Shown one piece after another: positions 2,261 through 16,458 of a stretch of DNA of 21,861 bases. The notes under the pieces were generated by a model. The model was not told where the DNA came from, did no database searches, and saw only the letters and a program-made list of their open reading frames with translations. The stretch covers positions 1-21,861 of the IMG/VR virus record IMGVR_UViG_3300042305_000635; one strand, given 5' to 3'. A program made the translations under genes and the position numbers. This DNA comes from a virus. Position 1 is the stretch's first letter; each line of letters opens with the position of its first letter.

Positions 2261-2422
2261 ATGCCGTTCCGAGAGTTCATCCCAAGGGTGCAAGCGTGGC
2301 AAAGAAACATGGCGGGCATCCCGCAGGACACGAAGGAAGATCGAGACGCGGAGGAGGTGGCTCGCGTTCGACGCGAGGAGAGGATGACCCAGAAGCCGCA
2401 GGCCAACTCCGAGCAGCCCTAG
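2261..2422 (+). CDS. Small charged hypothetical protein (53 aa)
   Basis: ATG 2261 follows AGGAG (2251-2255) with 5 bases between, and the upstream stop TAG (2250-2252) overlaps that ribosome binding site. The same stop/SD arrangement precedes the DUF3310 gene, which supports the start. The protein is highly charged and probably helical (REFIPRVQAWQRNM, then EDRDAEEVARVRREERM) with a polar tail. Codon choice looks coding (many NNC/NNG codons). It overlaps the 5' extension of the RusA reading frame, and of the two this frame looks more protein-like. No family is recognised. It could couple translation to the RusA gene that follows. Confidence 0.6.
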   Translation: MPFREFIPRVQAWQRNMAGIPQDTKEDRDAEEVARVRREERMTQKPQANSEQP

Positions 2423-2448
2423 GGCTTCGCTCCGAATACCGGCCGTGG

Positions 2449-2877
2449 GTGGAGTTTGTGGCGCATGGGCCTCCAGCACCGCAGCCCCGCCCGCGCATCT
2501 CGATGAGGGGAGGGTTCGCGCGGGCCTACACGCCCGCCGACCATCCCGTCGTTGCCTTCCGGCGAGCCGTGGGTGCTGCCGCAATGCGCAAGATGACCAA
2601 GGCCGAGTGGCAGCGAAGGCTGGGAGGGCTTCGTGTCAGGATTCAAGTCTGGTGCTGTTTCGTCAGGCCGCCATCGCACCTCCTGGCGAGCGGATTGCCC
2701 AGAAAAGACGCACCGCTAATGCCTCGACCCGACACGGACAACCTTGTGAAAGCCGTGATGGATGCGCTCACGGACGCTGGCGTCTGGGATGACGATACGG
2801 TGGTGGTCAATGAGGGTTGTCGCAAGCGATACGTCAGCGCGCGTGTCGGCGCGCACACGGTGGTGCGCGTCCGCTAG
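2449..2877 (+). CDS. rusA: RusA-like Holliday junction endodeoxyribonuclease
   Basis: RusA resolvases cut four-way DNA junctions during phage recombination and before packaging. The N-terminus (VEFVAHGPPAPQPRPR) matches the RusA start, which has a Gly-Pro turn and a basic patch. The core RPDTDNLVKAVMDAL...VWDDDTVV holds the acidic residues. Counting from GTG 2449 these are D95, D97, K101 and D116. Their spacing (2, 4 and 19 residues) equals that of E. coli RusA D70, D72, K76 and D91, so the enzyme looks intact. The start is uncertain. The frame stays open back to 2188 and GTG 2296 has an AAGGG before it, but that extension is Gly/Arg-rich and overlaps the 53-residue gene, so I chose 2449. The length (142 residues) suits the family. 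Confidence 0.85.
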   Translation: MEFVAHGPPAPQPRPRISMRGGFARAYTPADHPVVAFRRAVGAAAMRKMTKAEWQRRLGGLRVRIQVWCCFVRPPSHLLASGLPRKDAPLMPRPDTDNLVKAVMDALTDAGVWDDDTVVVNEGCRKRYVSARVGAHTVVRVR

Positions 2878-2907
2878 TTGGCGCACAGGCGCTGCGCGCG
2901 CTACACT
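2878..2907 (+). promoter_or_regulatory. Sigma70-like promoter, predicted leaderless transcript
   Basis: TTGGCG (2878-2883) and TACACT (2902-2907) are separated by 18 bases, immediately after the rusA stop. The ATG of the next gene lies only 7 bases after the -10 box, about where transcription should begin. No Shine-Dalgarno sequence precedes that ATG. Box matches are seen in the sequence; promoter activity and leaderless translation are inference. Confidence 0.5.
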
Positions 2908-2914
2908 CTTCGTT

Positions 2915-4165
2915 ATGAAAGTCGAGATGCTGCCGGTCGCGGAAGTCTCTCCATACGAGAAGAATCCGCGCCGCAACGAGAAAGCCGTTGACGCAGTCGC
3001 TGCGTCCATTCGCCAATTCGGTTGGCGTCAGCCGATTGTTGTTGACGCCAAGAAGGTCATCATCGTCGGCCACACTCGATACCTTGCCGCGCTCAAGTTG
3101 GGCGAGGAGAAGGTGCCGGTGCTGGTCGCGAAAGACCTCAAGGCAGATCAGGTCAAGGCTTACCGCATCGCAGACAACAAGACCAACGAGATCGCAGAGT
3201 GGGACGTTGGCCTGCTGTCCGCTGAACTCAAGGCCCTCTCTGACCTAGGCTGGAATGACTTCAGCGGCCTCGCGTTCGACACTCGCGAGATCGACGCCCT
3301 GCTGTCGCCGCTGGCCGAGAAGGTGTTTGAGGCTGATAGGCCAACGCTGGCAACCGCCACTGAGGAGCAGGCTCCAGAACTTGCTCCGGCGGTGCGAGGC
3401 GAGGAGCCAAGGAACTACCTAGAGGAAGAGGTTGAGGAGGACGATGAGCCGCAGGAGCCAGACACCTCGCAGAGCATCACGACGTACCGTGACGATGCGA
3501 AGTTCTCGTCGAGCAACTGGCTAGGCTTTCCAGACCTCCTGCCGCACATGCTGTGGGACGGAGACATTCGTCGCGTCTACATCAAGGACGAAGACACGGC
3601 ACCAACGCAACTGATCGTCTGGAGCGCTGTCGGAGTTGACGAGCGCATGCGGGGCCACGTTGTCACGTTCTACGCGAGCGACGAGCGATTCGAGCATGCG
3701 ATCTGGGACAAGGCCGTAGACTTCCTCGACAAGATGGCGATCATCAAACCGGGCGCTCTGGTGATGCCAGACTTCTCAACGTGGACAGACGAGCCGACCG
3801 CGTTCAACATCTGGAACACGTTCCGCGCTCGCTGGTGCGCACGGTACTGGCAGGAGGCCGGACATAAGATCATCCCGAACGTCAACCTCTGCGACGAAGC
3901 CAGTTGGGAGTGGATCTTCCTCGGCTATCCGAAAGAGGTTCCCTGTGCGATGTTCCAGTGCCGCCAGGGCTACAACGACAACGAGAAGTCAAAGCAGACG
4001 CTCATTCGCGGACTGCACGAATGGTGCAAGCGAGTCACGACGCGAAAGATGTTTCTCTACGGAGGCGAGCATCGCGAGTGGCTTGAGCCGCATCTGCCGA
4101 AGGGGCCACAGTATGTGTGGTTCCCGTCGTACCACAAAGCAAGGAAGGACGCTGGTCTTTTCTGA
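2915..4165 (+). CDS. ParB-like domain / DUF4417 fusion protein
   Basis: This 416-residue protein starts at ATG 2915; the open frame back to 2762 lies inside rusA. Residues 1-97 form a ParB/sulfiredoxin-like domain: LPVAEVSPYEKNPRRNE, the nucleotide-binding box GHTRYLAA (52-59), and DNKTNEIAEWD (87-97). An acidic linker (about 150-187) follows. Residues about 189-416 match DUF4417 as I recall it: FYASDERFEHAIWD near 252, MPDFSTW near 284-290, RARWCARYWQEAGHKIIPNV near 305-323, and a YGGEHREW end. Phage ParB-like domains are more often fused to DNA methyltransferases; here DUF4417, of unknown function, takes that place. A DNA-associated role is plausible, as nuclease, CTPase switch or replication factor. 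It seems to start a new transcription unit. Confidence 0.85.
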   Translation: MKVEMLPVAEVSPYEKNPRRNEKAVDAVAASIRQFGWRQPIVVDAKKVIIVGHTRYLAALKLGEEKVPVLVAKDLKADQVKAYRIADNKTNEIAEWDVGLLSAELKALSDLGWNDFSGLAFDTREIDALLSPLAEKVFEADRPTLATATEEQAPELAPAVRGEEPRNYLEEEVEEDDEPQEPDTSQSITTYRDDAKFSSSNWLGFPDLLPHMLWDGDIRRVYIKDEDTAPTQLIVWSAVGVDERMRGHVVTFYASDERFEHAIWDKAVDFLDKMAIIKPGALVMPDFSTWTDEPTAFNIWNTFRARWCARYWQEAGHKIIPNVNLCDEASWEWIFLGYPKEVPCAMFQCRQGYNDNEKSKQTLIRGLHEWCKRVTTRKMFLYGGEHREWLEPHLPKGPQYVWFPSYHKARKDAGLF

Positions 4166-4948: not shown

Positions 4949-5176
4949 ATGCAAGATCCAACCTTGCCAAACGAAAAAAATGAGTCGATAAATCTGGCCT
5001 CCCTTACGCCGCAGCAAATGGCGACGATTCTTGCGAAGGCGAGCGGCGTGACGATTGACGTATGTCAAATCGAGGAAGACATCAAGGCAGGCGCTCCGGT
5101 TGACCAAGACGGGAACCTCAACATCCTTTCATACGCGGCGTGGCTTGCCAAAGACGCACAGGCGATGGGGCATTGA
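4949..5176 (+). CDS. Small DNA-binding-like protein, candidate small terminase subunit
   Basis: This 75-residue protein starts at ATG 4949; no strong ribosome binding site is visible. The core 'SLTPQQMATILAKASGVTIDVCQIEEDIKAGAP' looks like a short helical DNA-binding module in which the second helix ends before a Gly. It is followed by 'DGNLNILSYAAWL'. The same arrangement recurs at the N-terminus of TerL encoded immediately downstream ('SVPEAARVL', an 'RAG' turn, 'DGRTLHLVRYAAWL'). The position directly before TerL, small size and overlap (its TGA lies within a possible TerL TTG start) suit a small terminase or packaging-site recognition protein. TerS proteins are usually longer and oligomeric, so this is a candidate only. 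I recall similar small YAAWL proteins from planctomycete genomes. Confidence 0.7.
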   Translation: MQDPTLPNEKNESINLASLTPQQMATILAKASGVTIDVCQIEEDIKAGAPVDQDGNLNILSYAAWLAKDAQAMGH

Positions 5177-7509
5177 GACTCGATCTGCAACAACTGTCGG
5201 TGCCGGAAGCAGCGAGAGTGCTGAACAGCACGCCCGTTGGCGAGGTCATCGCGCCTCGCGTAGTGTATCGCCACCTCAACCGTGCTGGGCTAAAGATTGG
5301 CGATGGCAGGACGCTGCATCTGGTTCGCTATGCCGCCTGGCTATTTCGCGTTCGCAGCGAAGCCAAGCCAGAGCCAGGGAGCGAGCGGAGCGACTACGAG
5401 AAGGTCAAGGCCAGCGCAGCCCAACGCGCTCGCAACATATCCGAGGCTGGCCGCGATATAGCGGGCGACGATTGGGTGCGACCGGCCAAGGATCAGGCCA
5501 GAAAAGACGCGGCGACTATGGGGTTTCGTGCCTTCTGCGACTCATACTTTCCGCAGTTGTTCCATCTGCCGTGGTCAGAGGATCACCTTCGCGTCATCGC
5601 AAAGATCGAGCGAGCCGTGCTGGAAGGCGAGTTGTTTGCGATGGCAATGCCTCGCGGAAGCGGCAAGACAACGCTGTGCGAGATGGGATGCCTGTGGGCG
5701 ATGATGATCGGTGCGCATGAGTTCGTCGTGCTGATTGGATCTGACGAGAGCCATGCCGCTGATATGCTCGACTCGATCAAGAGCGAACTAGAGAACAACG
5801 ATCTTCTTGATGAGGATTGGTCCGAGATCACAGGCCCCATCAGAGCATTGGAGGGCATTCACCAGCGGGCCAAGGGTCAGTTGTTCAATGGTGATCGAAC
5901 GCACATCGGCTGGACATCCGGCGAGGTGGTGCTGCCTACAGTCCCAGGCTCGATGGCGTCTGGCGGAATCATTCGCGTAGGCGGCATCACTGGTCGAATC
6001 CGTGGCATGAAGTTCAAGAGGCCAGACGGTCGCAGCGTCAGGCCGTCGCTCGTGCTTGTGGACGATCCACAGACGGACGAATCGGCCAAGTCTCCGAGCC
6101 AGTGCGCGACGCGAGAGTCGATCCTCTCCGGTGCGATCCTCGGCCTCGCAGGCCCAGGCAAAAAGATCGCAGGGCTGATGACCGTCACTGTTGTGCAGCA
6201 GGACGATATGGCTGATCGCATGCTCGACCGCACCAAGCATCCAGCATGGCAGGGCGAGCGTACCAAGATGGTGTATTCGTTCCCGAAGAACGAGGTTCTT
6301 TGGGCGAAGTATTTCGACCTCCGCAGATCCGGGCAGGCGGAAGGCACAGGGACGATGGCTGCAACGCAGTTCTATGTCGAGAACCGCGATGCGATGGACG
6401 AAGGATCGGCAGTGTCCTGGCCCGAGCGTCACGATCCAGGCGAACTATCTGCCATCCAGCACGCGATGAACATTCGCTGCGACCGTGGAGACAACGCCTT
6501 CTACGCGGAGTATCAGAACGAGCCTCTGCCGTCGCTCACGGATCACATGGAGGTGCTGAGCGCCGAGGTCATCAACAAGAAGCGAAACGGCTACAAGCGA
6601 GGAGTCATTCCAGCCAAGGCCACGCGACTCACGGCATTTATCGACGTTCAGCAGACGATTTTGTATTGGATGGTCTGCGCCTGGGAAGACGATTTCAGCG
6701 GTGCGATCATCGACTACGGGACGCATCCAGAGCAGGGCCGTGCGTACTTCACGATGCGTGACGCCCAGAGAACGATCCAAGTCGAGCACCGAGAGTCTGC
6801 GTTTGAGGCCAACTTGTATGCTGCCCTGGAGCGGTGCGTCACGATGCTCTGCACTCGCGAGTACCGATTCGACGATGGTACGACGCAGCGGCTCGAGAGG
6901 ATGTTTATTGACGCAAACTGGGGAGCATCGACCGACATCGTCTACCAGTTCTGCCGAGCCACGCCATTCGCCAACATCGTGCTACCCTCTCACGGCCGCT
7001 ATGTCGGCGCATCGTCGCTACCCATGTCGGAATACGCGAAGCGTCTAGGCGACCGCATGGGGCCAAACTGGCGAATCCCAGGCACCGGAGGCAAGCGAGC
7101 CGTCAGGCATTGCCTGTTCGATACGAACTTCTGGAAGTCATTCGCCGTAGCACGATTCCAGACTGTGATCGGGGAGTCTGGGTGCTTGACGCTGTTTAGC
7201 GACTACGATCACGGCCTGCTGTGCGATCACTTGCTGGCAGAGGCTCCCGTGAGAACAGAGGCTCGCGGAAGGGTTGTCGATGAGTGGAAAACCAAGATAG
7301 TCGGCCAGGATAATCACTGGTTTGACTGCTTGGTGGGATGCTGCGTCGGAGCGTCTGTGTGCGGCGTGAGGACTGTCGGTGTCGAAGTGCAGTCAGGTCA
7401 GCGGAAGAAATACGCTGGAGGCTCTGCGGAAACAGCCAAGCCGCAAGTATCGCAGCGAAAAAGGTACGGCACGGCTGGCGTTGTGGATGATGCGAACCTA
7501 GTCGGGTAA
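5173..7509 (+). CDS. terL: Terminase large subunit (packaging ATPase/nuclease)
   Basis: TerL drives DNA into the prohead and cuts the concatemer. With TTG 5173 as start (778 residues), a small extra N-terminal module (about 1-55) precedes the ATPase. The Walker A-like AMPRGSGKTT is at 158-167, Walker B 'LVLVDD' ends at D297-D298, and a TVTVVQQDDM coupling segment follows. The C-terminal RNase H-like nuclease shows FIDVQ (D491), MFIDANWG (D580) and HWFDCLVG (D718) as its three acidic positions. All expected motifs are present, so it looks functional. The start is uncertain: TTG 5173 overlaps the upstream TGA, GTG 5200 is also possible, and GTG 5140 lies further inside the upstream gene. A gpW-position gene and a lambda-type portal follow, as in lambda-like packaging modules. 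Confidence 0.92.
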   Translation: MRLDLQQLSVPEAARVLNSTPVGEVIAPRVVYRHLNRAGLKIGDGRTLHLVRYAAWLFRVRSEAKPEPGSERSDYEKVKASAAQRARNISEAGRDIAGDDWVRPAKDQARKDAATMGFRAFCDSYFPQLFHLPWSEDHLRVIAKIERAVLEGELFAMAMPRGSGKTTLCEMGCLWAMMIGAHEFVVLIGSDESHAADMLDSIKSELENNDLLDEDWSEITGPIRALEGIHQRAKGQLFNGDRTHIGWTSGEVVLPTVPGSMASGGIIRVGGITGRIRGMKFKRPDGRSVRPSLVLVDDPQTDESAKSPSQCATRESILSGAILGLAGPGKKIAGLMTVTVVQQDDMADRMLDRTKHPAWQGERTKMVYSFPKNEVLWAKYFDLRRSGQAEGTGTMAATQFYVENRDAMDEGSAVSWPERHDPGELSAIQHAMNIRCDRGDNAFYAEYQNEPLPSLTDHMEVLSAEVINKKRNGYKRGVIPAKATRLTAFIDVQQTILYWMVCAWEDDFSGAIIDYGTHPEQGRAYFTMRDAQRTIQVEHRESAFEANLYAALERCVTMLCTREYRFDDGTTQRLERMFIDANWGASTDIVYQFCRATPFANIVLPSHGRYVGASSLPMSEYAKRLGDRMGPNWRIPGTGGKRAVRHCLFDTNFWKSFAVARFQTVIGESGCLTLFSDYDHGLLCDHLLAEAPVRTEARGRVVDEWKTKIVGQDNHWFDCLVGCCVGASVCGVRTVGVEVQSGQRKKYAGGSAETAKPQVSQRKRYGTAGVVDDANLVG

Positions 7510-9739: not shown

Positions 9740-11620
9740 ATGAGCGACACGCTGAAAGTGACCGCCGACATCTGCTTTGAGGGCGAGGCCGTGCAGGCCG
9801 CCGCCAGCAATGCTGAAGGCTTGATGCAGCCGCAAGGGCCGCGTCGATTCAAGGTCAATGCGTACACTGGTGGTGCAATCAGCCAGCCCTGGTCGCGCGA
9901 GCCGGTCATCGTTGATTTGCAGGGCATGACTTGGACGAACAAGCGGCGTCCGATCCTGCTTCAGCACTCGTACGAACTCGATTCAATTCTCGGCCAGACC
10001 ACCGACGTTCGCGTCGAGGGTCGCAATCTTGTCGTGGAAGCCGAGATGATTGGCGGCAACGCCAGTTCCGACAAGGTCATCGCGTTGGCCGAGCGCGGCT
10101 ACCAGTGGCAGGCGTCGATTGGTGCGGATGTCCTCCGTGCCGAGAAACTGCCTGCTGGCGAAACCGCGATGGTCAACGGTCAAGCGATCACTGGGCCAGC
10201 GCGAATCGTTCGTGCTTCCCGGCTGCGTGAAGTTTCTGTAGTCACCCTAGGCGCGGACGATAATACGTCCGCTTCTCTCGCCGCCACGGCGGCACAACCA
10301 GAGGAGAGTTCCATGTCGGACGAGAGCCGCGAAGCCGTTGAAGCCGTCACCGAGGTCGCCACGCCCGTCGCTGCCACGGCTGCGATCAACGAAGACGCCA
10401 TCGCGGAAAAGGTCGCCGCCAAGCTTCTCGCCGCGCAGTCGGCGCAGAAGGTGGAGTCGATCCGCGCCGCTCGTCCCTCCGCTCCCGCCGTGCATGTGGA
10501 GCAGAATCGCGAGGCGATCAGCGATGTGCTGAAGGCCGCGATCTGCCAGAGCGCTCGCCTCGCCAACGTCGAGAAGGAGTTCTCGCCGCAGGTGCTGGAG
10601 GCCGCCCAGAAGAAGTACAAGGGCGGCATCGGACTCGGCGAACTGCTCGTCGAGGCGGCCCGCGCCAACGGCTACGAAGGTCGCACCACGTTCCGCGACG
10701 AGTCGTACTCGCGTCCGATCCTGCGAGCGGCGTTCGCCACGCACGACATCTCCGACATCCTGTCGGCGACCGTCAACAAGTCGCTCCTCCAGGGCTTCAC
10801 CACGGTCGACAACACTTGGTCGCGCGTCAGCACCACGCGATCCGTGGCCGACTTCAAGACCGTCACCTCCTACCGTCTGACGGGCGGCTTCAAGTTTGAA
10901 GAGATGAGCGGCAAGCACGAGTTCAAGCTGGCGGCTGCCGGGAACGTCAAGTACCAGAACTCCGCTCGCACCTACGGCATCTCGACGAACGTGACCCGCG
11001 AGGACATCATCAACGACGATCTCGGTGCGATCACGGCGGTGCCTTCCCGTATCGGGCGAGGTGCGGCTCTGAAACTCAACGAGGTCTTCTGGACGGCCTT
11101 CCTCAACAACTCGACGTTCTTCACGAGCGGCAACAAGAACCTCGGCAGTGGCTCTGGCTCGGCGTTCGGGATCGACGGCCTCACTGCCGCCGAGATCCTG
11201 TTCCTCGACCAGACGGACGATGACGGCTACCCGCTCGCGGTGTCGCCTTCGATCCTGCTGGTGCCGACGGCGCTCAACGCCAAGGCCCTGCAACTGCGGA
11301 CTGCCACGGAGATTCGCGACACGAACTCCAGCACGAAGTACCCGACCGCGAATCCGCACGCCGGGAAGTACGAGATCATCACGACGCCTTACCTGTCGAA
11401 CTCGTCGTTCACGGGCAACTCGACCGCTGCCTACTACCTCCTTGCCTCGCCGCAAGACCTGTCCACTATCGAGGTGGCGTTCCTCAACGGGGTGCAGCAG
11501 CCGACCGTCGAGCAGGCTGACCTCGACTTCTCGCTGCTCGGCATCCAGATGCGTGGTTACTTCGACTTCGGCGTGGCGATGGTCGAGCCGCGTGCCGGTG
11601 TCAAGATGGCCGGTTCGTGA
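9740..11620 (+). CDS. Prohead protease-major capsid protein fusion
   Basis: This 626-residue protein starts at ATG 9740; the frame open back to 9647 has no support there. Residues 1-190 fit a prohead protease of the HK97/Mu-like fold: 'RRPILLQHSYELDSILG' gives H76 and 'YQWQASIGAD' gives S126, a plausible His/Ser pair, followed by 'LREVSVVTLGAD'. Residues about 192-290 are Ala/Glu-rich and helical, like a scaffold or delta domain. From about 310 the major capsid protein follows ('THDISDILSATVNKSLLQGF', 'DFKTVTSYRLTGGFKFEEMS', 'TREDIINDDLGA', 'NEVFWTAFLNN'), similar to Mu gpT-type heads. A strong internal start (M192) could yield capsid without protease. No separate protease or scaffold gene is present, consistent with fusion. 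Codons in the capsid part favour C/G in third position, as expected for an abundant product. Confidence 0.9.
   Translation: MSDTLKVTADICFEGEAVQAAASNAEGLMQPQGPRRFKVNAYTGGAISQPWSREPVIVDLQGMTWTNKRRPILLQHSYELDSILGQTTDVRVEGRNLVVEAEMIGGNASSDKVIALAERGYQWQASIGADVLRAEKLPAGETAMVNGQAITGPARIVRASRLREVSVVTLGADDNTSASLAATAAQPEESSMSDESREAVEAVTEVATPVAATAAINEDAIAEKVAAKLLAAQSAQKVESIRAARPSAPAVHVEQNREAISDVLKAAICQSARLANVEKEFSPQVLEAAQKKYKGGIGLGELLVEAARANGYEGRTTFRDESYSRPILRAAFATHDISDILSATVNKSLLQGFTTVDNTWSRVSTTRSVADFKTVTSYRLTGGFKFEEMSGKHEFKLAAAGNVKYQNSARTYGISTNVTREDIINDDLGAITAVPSRIGRGAALKLNEVFWTAFLNNSTFFTSGNKNLGSGSGSAFGIDGLTAAEILFLDQTDDDGYPLAVSPSILLVPTALNAKALQLRTATEIRDTNSSTKYPTANPHAGKYEIITTPYLSNSSFTGNSTAAYYLLASPQDLSTIEVAFLNGVQQPTVEQADLDFSLLGIQMRGYFDFGVAMVEPRAGVKMAGS
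10301..10315 (+). promoter_or_regulatory. Internal ribosome binding site and start inside the protease-capsid gene
   Basis: GAGGAG (10301-10306) stands 6 bases before an in-frame ATG (10313), exactly at the protease/scaffold boundary. It would give a 435-residue scaffold-capsid product. A small GC hairpin (GCCGC/GCGGC, 10280-10293) lies just upstream. The spacing is better than at the gene's own start, which has no ribosome binding site. Confidence 0.6.
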
Positions 11621-15434: not shown

Positions 15435-15767
15435 ATGGCAGTCACTTACACGCTCGGCAAAGACGCGACGATCAGCGGCATCAGCGGCTGCGTTCGCGAT
15501 GTGACCGCCAGCATCGAGGCCAGCCGCATCGACGTTACCTGTCGAGGCGATGACAAGCGCAAATTCAAGTCCGGCCTTCGCGAAGCCACCATCGAGGTCG
15601 AGGTTCTCGATGAACCTCCGGCTGCGGGCGACGAGATCACAATCTCTCACGCGAACAGCGGCCTCGGCGGAATCTTCATCGTGACATCTGTGGCTCGCAG
15701 CGAGCCGCTCGACGATGTCGTTTCGTACAAGATTTCCTGCAAGTATAAAGAACCCGGTGGCCCGTAG
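15435..15767 (+). CDS. Tail tube-like protein, paralogue 1 of 3
   Basis: This 110-residue protein starts at ATG 15435 after TAGGAG (15423-15428). 'LGKDATISG', then 'VRDVTASIEASRIDVTCRGDDKRKFKSGLREATIEVEVLDEP', 'GDEITIS' and 'SEPLDDVVSYKISCKY' describe a small beta barrel. The 'DVT..IE....DVT.RG...K...GLR.A.IE.E' section is the recurring pattern of phage tail-tube proteins, where a modified strand faces the lumen. It lies between tail-completion and chaperone genes, exactly where the major tail protein belongs. Of the three copies this is closest to the tube consensus, so it is my first choice for the true tube subunit. Confidence 0.8.
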   Translation: MAVTYTLGKDATISGISGCVRDVTASIEASRIDVTCRGDDKRKFKSGLREATIEVEVLDEPPAAGDEITISHANSGLGGIFIVTSVARSEPLDDVVSYKISCKYKEPGGP

Positions 15768-15782
15768 TCAGGAGCGAAAAAC

Positions 15783-16094
15783 ATGGCGAAGGTTCTCGGC
15801 AAAGATGTTGTTTCCTCGATCACGGGAATCAACAACGACAACATCATCAGCGTCACCGACACCAGCGAGTGCGAGACGATTGACATCAGCGCTCGCGGCA
15901 ACGCTGGCGGCACGAACGGCTTCAAGTCGTATGCCGCAGGCTACGTTTCGCAGACCATTGAGGTCGAGTGCCTGTCGCACTCCTGCACGGTCGGCCAGCA
16001 GTTTGGCGATTTGGAGTGCATCTCCATCAGCGTCAACGAGCCGCTCGACGGCCCGGTAACGTATACCATCACGTTCGGGCCGGGCGCTGACTGA
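15783..16094 (+). CDS. Tail tube-like protein, paralogue 2 of 3
   Basis: This 103-residue protein starts at ATG 15783 after AGGAG (15771-15775). It shares with its neighbours the opening 'LGKD', the central 'IDISARGNAGGTNGFKSYAAGYVSQTIEVECL' and the closing 'NEPLDGPVTYTITFG'. It retains a 'DISARG..G..GFK' segment matching 'DVTCRG....KFK' of paralogue 1. Length and order suggest a tandem duplication followed by divergence. It may be a second tube or tube-tip subunit, or a decoration of the tube. A small hairpin (16082-16099) covers its stop codon and could set the expression ratio to paralogue 3. Confidence 0.78.
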   Translation: MAKVLGKDVVSSITGINNDNIISVTDTSECETIDISARGNAGGTNGFKSYAAGYVSQTIEVECLSHSCTVGQQFGDLECISISVNEPLDGPVTYTITFGPGAD

Positions 16095-16099
16095 CGCCC
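16082..16099 (+). other. Hairpin between tube paralogues 2 and 3
   Basis: GGGCG (16082-16086) pairs with CGCCC (16095-16099). The 8-base loop contains the end of paralogue 2, including its TGA (16092-16094). It sits two bases before TAGGAG, the ribosome binding site of paralogue 3, so it could dampen translation or transcription of the third copy. No T-run follows. Confidence 0.3.
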
Positions 16100-16113
16100 A
16101 ATAGGAGCGTCAA

Positions 16114-16458
16114 GTGCCTGCTCTCAACATAGTTCTCGGCAAAGACTGCGTACTCACAGGCAGTCACATCGAGAACGACTACGTTCGCAATGTGTCTTAT
16201 CAGCAGTCGGCAAAGACTGTTGAGTATCAGCCTTTCGGCCAGCGAGCGGTCTGCGTCCACAACGCCGGCTACGACTGCACCATCGAAGTCGAGATGCTCA
16301 AGGACACGGGAGCGCAGGCCAAGTTGCAGACCGGCGACGAAATCACGATCTCCGGTTCCGGCTATTCCGGTTCTTTCGTTATAGTCAACGTCAATCGCGA
16401 TGAGCCGCTGGATGGAGCAGTCAGCGTGCGAATCACCGCGAAACTCACCTCTCTCTAG
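16114..16458 (+). CDS. Tail tube-like protein, paralogue 3 of 3
   Basis: This 114-residue protein starts at GTG 16114 after TAGGAG (16102-16107). The 'LGKD' start, 'YDCTIEVEMLKDTG..AKLQTGDEITISGSGYSGSFVIVNVNRDEPLDGAVSVRI' follow paralogue 1 closely in the C-terminal half ('AAGDEITIS...GIFIVTSVARSEPLDDVVSYKI'). The central 'DVT.RG' segment is lost here (replaced by VEYQPFGQRAV), so this copy may have a different role, such as a tail-tip or tube-initiator subunit. The stop TAG overlaps the AGGAG of the next gene, coupling it to the tail chaperone. Confidence 0.78.
   Translation: MPALNIVLGKDCVLTGSHIENDYVRNVSYQQSAKTVEYQPFGQRAVCVHNAGYDCTIEVEMLKDTGAQAKLQTGDEITISGSGYSGSFVIVNVNRDEPLDGAVSVRITAKLTSL

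Follow-up and report, generated by a model that had tools for sequence, protein, structure and literature searches.

Here, we describe a phage gene that joins a ParB-like module to DUF4417, a domain for which structure prediction well supports a TIM barrel, and we tentatively suggest that its product is a two-module DNA-modifying enzyme in which ParB would act as the NTP-dependent module and DUF4417 as an uncharacterized catalytic module. The gene lies in a viral DNA of 21,861 nucleotides (hereafter the window; IMG/VR record IMGVR_UViG_3300042305_000635). The closest relatives of its ParB module are fused to, or lie beside, phage DNA-modifying enzymes, which is our reason for thinking that the uncharacterized half may well be an enzyme of this kind.

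The fusion of ParB to DUF4417 is not new. PHROG 940 covers the whole protein, and the survey of ParB-fold proteins by Kaljevic et al. (2025, PNAS; PMC12704722) names DUF4417 among the domains more often fused to phage ParB, describes such fusions as strongly enriched in prophage regions, and suggests roles of phage ParB fusions in anti-defense or phage-host interaction. The survey assigns DUF4417 no function, and in its text DUF4417 is among the fusions sampled and absent from the named NTP binders. Two further papers list DUF4417 in gene tables only, one of them for a streptococcal phage in which the gene lies downstream of RusA and shortly before terminase. What is new here is the TIM-barrel model of DUF4417, a swap of conserved carboxylates within it, and the kinship of the ParB module with those of DNA methyltransferases. 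DUF4417 is among the commonest phage ParB partners, and no function is proposed for it in the papers found; as a hypothetical enzyme, it can now be tested at specific residues and in cultured phages (Streptococcus phage MM1 and Gordonia phages). The features of the locus are collected in Table 1.

Table 1. Features of the ParB-DUF4417 locus, in positions of the window.
Feature	Position	Strand	Basis and remarks
RusA-like resolvase gene, directly upstream of the fusion gene (conserved slot)	2299..2877	+	PF05866, E 1.5e-19; similar order in MM1 and jlb1
Putative promoter region, TTGGCG-N18-TACACT	2880..2915	+	Just before the ATG; conserved in L004 and L005, not in L027
ParB-DUF4417 fusion gene	2915..4165	+	416 aa; Pfam PF02195 and PF14386; PHROG 940 full length
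ParB/sulfiredoxin-fold N-terminal module (residues 1-137)	2915..3325	+	Profile, fold; GHxR motif (R55)
Acidic disordered linker (residues 138-196)	3326..3502	+	Composition, pLDDT
DUF4417 domain (residues 197-416)	3503..4162	+	Pfam; predicted TIM barrel
Invariant Asp256 (FYxxDxRFE motif)	3680..3682	+	Conservation
Asp286 (PDFS motif), one half of the carboxylate swap	3770..3772	+	Conservation
Asn322 (IIPN), other half of the swap	3878..3880	+	Asp in every member with PNFS/ANFS
Lys-rich, histone-H1-tail-like ORF, 66 aa	4230..4430	+	Counterparts in L004, L005 and L027, there too right after the fusion gene
Terminase large subunit gene (GpA type), downstream	5140..7509	+	PF20454, E 1.3e-19; PHROG 38, terminase large subunit

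The domain layout agrees with the original prediction, which had placed a ParB-like domain at the N-terminus, DUF4417 at the C-terminus and an acidic linker between them. In Pfam, ParB_N (PF02195) matches residues 2-85 with an E-value of 2e-8 in the whole protein and 4e-9 in the N-terminal part alone (34.5 bits vs. a curated cut-off of 26.3), and DUF4417 (PF14386) matches residues 223-388 with E-values of 5e-32 in the whole protein and 1e-32 in the C-terminal part alone (111 bits vs. a curated cut-off of 28.9); each half is therefore recognized when searched separately. The PHROG 940 profile, which is labeled "nuclease," aligns residues 2-411 with its positions 5-362 of 388 (E 3.5e-70). The linker has 19 Asp/Glu among its 59 residues vs. 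5 Lys/Arg, and residues 152-187 have a pLDDT below 50 in the full-length AlphaFold2 model, which predicts disorder. Both domains evolve as under purifying selection, with dN/dS values of ∼0.08 to 0.2 in comparisons with three diverged relatives, and the start methionine is common to the fusion gene and relatives of the same architecture; on these two grounds, the ORF is a real gene. In one related record (L060:3172-4405), the fusion is split or frameshifted, with ParB and DUF4417 encoded by separate ORFs that overlap in different frames.

The predicted fold of the ParB module matches ParB 7bnr (Z 14.2, rmsd 1.6, 89 residues aligned) and R55 of the GHxR motif (here GHTR) is kept in 59 of 60 relatives. 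The canonical ParB HTH and C-terminal domain have no match in the N-terminal module, and the profile for full partition ParB proteins (TIGR00180, parB_part) aligns with residues 3-90 only, at 33.8 bits vs. a cut-off of 58.45. The nearest ParB relatives outside the clade of the window are the ParB modules of N6/N4 DNA methyltransferases: identity is 61% over 131 residues to a methyltransferase-fused ParB and 61-62% to the ParB modules of phage DNA methyltransferases, and at most 44% to the ParB modules of DUF4417 fusions outside its own clade. The DUF4417 domain of the window is 40% identical to that of one fusion outside its ParB clade. The ParB trees and the partner counts both derive from short domains gathered in a quick search: fusion to an N6/N4 methyltransferase is seen in 27 related ParB ORFs, and the tree needs at least four changes between methyltransferase and DUF4417 partners, compared with a mean of 12.7 for shuffled labels. 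The number of changes being lower than for shuffled labels, partners appear to have been inherited for a while and exchanged repeatedly. Fusions of ParB to DUF4417 are present in each of the two main clades of DUF4417. The original prediction rightly drew the analogy to ParB-methyltransferase fusions and rightly took the fusion as a clue to the role of DUF4417.

Residue conservation points to a candidate active site in a non-redundant set of 80 DUF4417 domains drawn from contigs of viruses and bacteria. Asp256 is an Asp in all 79 members that have a residue at this position. Positions 286, which follows strand 4, and 322, at the end of the next strand, are D/not-D in 74 members and N/D in six, and other combinations occur in 0 of the 80. 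The six swapped members are mutually 24-35% identical, and several of them are nearer to non-swapped members than to one another. In a tree built without columns 286 and 322, parsimony gives at least three changes for the swap, and in two independent comparisons on well-supported branches both sites change together; an AU test of a single swap origin gave p 0.07 and, thus, a single origin is not formally rejected. An active-site residue would be expected to behave in this way, with one carboxylate required at one or the other of two neighboring strand ends, and this sequence pattern looks catalytic.

The full-length AlphaFold2 model (pLDDT 85.6) consists of a ParB/sulfiredoxin-fold N-terminal domain, a disordered linker and a barrel, and DUF4417 modeled alone forms a TIM barrel with a pLDDT of 93 and a pTM of 0.91. 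The top solved-structure matches to this model are archaeosine and bacterial tRNA-guanine transglycosylases (TGTs; both Z 9.1, rmsd ∼4.0, 189-195 residues aligned). However, the same list has nearly as high scores for a TIM barrel designed de novo (Z 8.7) and for FBP aldolase (Z 8.3), amounting to a tie, and kinship to the transglycosylases is for this reason only suggestive. Foldseek matches of the model to solved structures have E-values of 4e-3 and above, and when the C-terminal part was compared with the sequences of solved structures, only chance matches were obtained (E 0.11 and above). Among the viral models in BFVD, two strong matches and one partial match are followed by weak matches that include several phage queuine tRNA-ribosyltransferases (DpdA-type), which are among the first viral matches after the family of DUF4417 itself.

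These structural matches raise a more specific version of the DNA-modifying reading, which we consider unlikely, namely that DUF4417 is a TGT/DpdA-like base-exchange enzyme that would replace a DNA base by a 7-deazaguanine; the ParB module would then correspond to DpdB, the ParB/DndB-like partner in the bacterial dpd system. The conserved carboxylates of DUF4417, which follow neighboring strands, fit such an enzyme. However, neither Asp256 nor the 286/322 carboxylate was matched to TGT residues in a comparison made short of a coordinate-level superposition, the last strand of DUF4417 is without a conserved Asp, and hhalign of DUF4417 against phage DpdA and against bacterial TGT gave a probability of 0.1, i.e., no profile similarity. 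A TGT match in Pfam was found neither in the DUF4417 proteins scanned nor in the window record. Moreover, QueC was detected in 0 of 35 DUF4417 virus records while it was found in the 9g control; these records may be fragments, and precursor salvage from the host is possible. Because of the lack of QueC in the 35 records and of sequence kinship to DpdA, base exchange stays a sub-case, and 7-deazaguanine chemistry for DUF4417 is possible but unsupported.

The original prediction had also pointed to nucleases and Rep proteins for comparison with the C-terminal domain. This part did not hold, the model being a TIM barrel with TGTs as nearest matches, while the domains, the linker and the methyltransferase analogy stood. 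An NTP-regulated nuclease or nickase, as the label of PHROG 940 says, is rather improbable: nicking or DNase activity is reported for ParB-fold proteins, one example being the ParB part of a ParB-methylase from Bacillus cereus (cited in PMC5512222), but the label probably derives from the naming of ParB-like nucleases, and no invariant His or Cys is present among the 80 DUF4417 members, unlike in metal-dependent TIM-barrel nucleases such as endonuclease IV. The lack of an invariant His or Cys also led us to discard a metallo-nuclease or a radical-SAM enzyme as readings of the barrel.

The genomic position of the gene is shared with DNA-modifying enzymes. The slot between RusA and terminase is occupied by ParB-DUF4417 in the window and in phage MM1, and among annotated phages the fusion fills the pre-terminase slot in MM1 and Javan394; in the slot before TerS, phage jlb1 carries ParB and a glycosyltransferase, and CR191 carries a ParB-methyltransferase. 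Because a single Pfam family detects TerL in only 12 of 35 records, our view of terminase linkage relies on annotated phages and on tallies of PHROG families. Some DUF4417 genes are distant from terminase (e.g., 22 kb in G032). Among named phages, no DNA-level relatives of the window were found. The stand-alone relatives of the ParB module also have companion genes. They directly precede a TAGT (TET-associated) glycosyltransferase gene in Lactobacillus phage jlb1 and in three further records (L235, L277 and L253), a C5-cytosine methylase gene in L239, and a PAPS-reductase-like gene in L244 and L287, and for several others terminase genes come directly next, with no modifying enzyme. In line with these pairs, ParBc genes are described beside the DNA cytosine carboxymethyltransferase CmoX in many contigs (PMC12783734), their function being unknown there. 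In L244:3590-4648 and L287:3584-4648, three genes are arranged head to tail, namely ParB, the PAPS-reductase-like gene and another ParB-type ORF, which is divergent; this is reminiscent of IbrA/IbrB or DndC-type pairs. The observations support a general rule, namely that a phage ParB module of this type is a marker of DNA-modifying enzymes, and more such enzymes could be found with it. One candidate under this rule is L229:4069-5028, a gene of 319 aa that comes shortly behind a stand-alone ParB gene and matches neither Pfam nor PHROG families; it may encode an unclassified DNA-modifying enzyme.

Two neighboring features had been part of the original prediction. A promoter of the gene's own is plausible: the window, L004 and L005 share a TTGGCG-N17/18-TANACT element that ends 7-9 nt before the start codon and is absent in L027, and although a consensus promoter scan upstream of the fusion gene found none, this element suggests a putative promoter serving a leaderless mRNA. 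The histone-like neighbor is a conserved Lys-rich ORF, and no Pfam or PHROG match was found for it. Elsewhere in the window, three adjacent genes (15435-16458; 110, 103 and 114 aa) with common LGKD, IEVE and EPLDG motifs resemble tandem paralogs, a head-maturation protease and the major capsid protein are apparently fused in one ORF (9746-11620; PHROG 4523 and 133), and an ORF at 1473-2252 matches PHROG 3704, labeled ferredoxin (E 2e-48).

In the window, MM1, Javan394 and other phages, the gene lies shortly before terminase; this location, together with the conserved Lys-rich gene, would also suit an accessory factor of packaging or late replication that marks or loads DNA beside terminase with no chemical modification. 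We regard this as improbable, since related phages carry methylases and glycosyltransferases in the same slot, the strand-end carboxylate swap looks catalytic, and some DUF4417 genes are far from terminase. DUF4417 stands alone in 51 of the 80 non-redundant members, and a recognizable ParB-type ORF lies within 6 kb in only two of the 51, one being a split fusion and the other a ParB-methyltransferase; because most sampled members stand alone in this manner, the ParB link does not span the whole DUF4417 family. An anti-defense or host-takeover enzyme that acts on a nucleotide, tRNA or signaling molecule rather than DNA, with ParB sensing NTP, would be in line with these stand-alone members and with the roles suggested in the PNAS survey (PMC12704722), but is very improbable given that the companion genes identified for the closest ParB modules encode DNA-modifying enzymes or terminase.

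Altogether, the reading of the fusion protein as a DNA-modifying enzyme draws on the two domains and the purifying selection on them, the TIM barrel, the carboxylate signature, the exchange of modules with methyltransferases, the companions, the shared slot and the CmoX study (PMC12783734), and is weakened by the mostly stand-alone occurrence of DUF4417, the distance of some DUF4417 genes from terminase and the ParB genes directly before terminase. We suggest that the protein would be made late in infection and that its ParB/sulfiredoxin-fold module, judged by its fold and GHxR motif, would bind NTP and bring the enzyme to, or license it on, phage DNA before packaging. DUF4417 would be the catalytic module, with a predicted active site at the C-terminal ends of the barrel strands composed of invariant Asp256 and a further carboxylate, either at residue 286 or at residue 322. 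This module may alter the bases, sugars or backbone of phage DNA, and this alteration may protect the phage from host nucleases. As an alternative catalytic module, DUF4417 would in that way take the place held in other phages by N6/N4 methyltransferases, glycosyltransferases, C5 methylases and PAPS-reductase-like enzymes, all of which are found with the same ParB module. A bolder extension, which we consider less likely than the enzyme assignment itself, is that DUF4417 is the founding family of an unrecognized class of phage DNA-modifying TIM-barrel enzymes that act via an NTP-dependent ParB in the fused members, possibly with a chemistry not yet described in DNA.

Among known systems, TGT and DpdA share with the DUF4417 model the TIM-barrel fold and acidic residues near strand ends, and differ from it in sequence and profile, in a structural deviation of ∼4 Å, in having an identifiable nucleophile Asp on the last strand, and in the QueC that is lacking from the DUF4417 phage records. 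The PHROG 940 fusions of streptococcal phages MM1 and Javan394 and of Gordonia phages such as ChisanaKitsune have the same two domains in the same order over their full length, and in MM1 and Javan394 they are likewise upstream of terminase; however, they are only ∼24-30% identical to the window protein over the full length, and its ParB module, unlike theirs, groups with methyltransferase-type ParB modules. The pairs of ParB with TAGT glycosyltransferase, C5-methylase or PAPS-reductase have a related ParB module, several of them in the same late-region slot, but consist of separate genes and different enzymes, whereas the window encodes a single fused gene. The phage fusions of ParB to N6/N4 methyltransferases (PHROG 498) share a 61-62% identical ParB module at the same N-terminal position and differ in the catalytic half, which is a methyltransferase in PHROG 498 and a predicted TIM barrel in the window protein.
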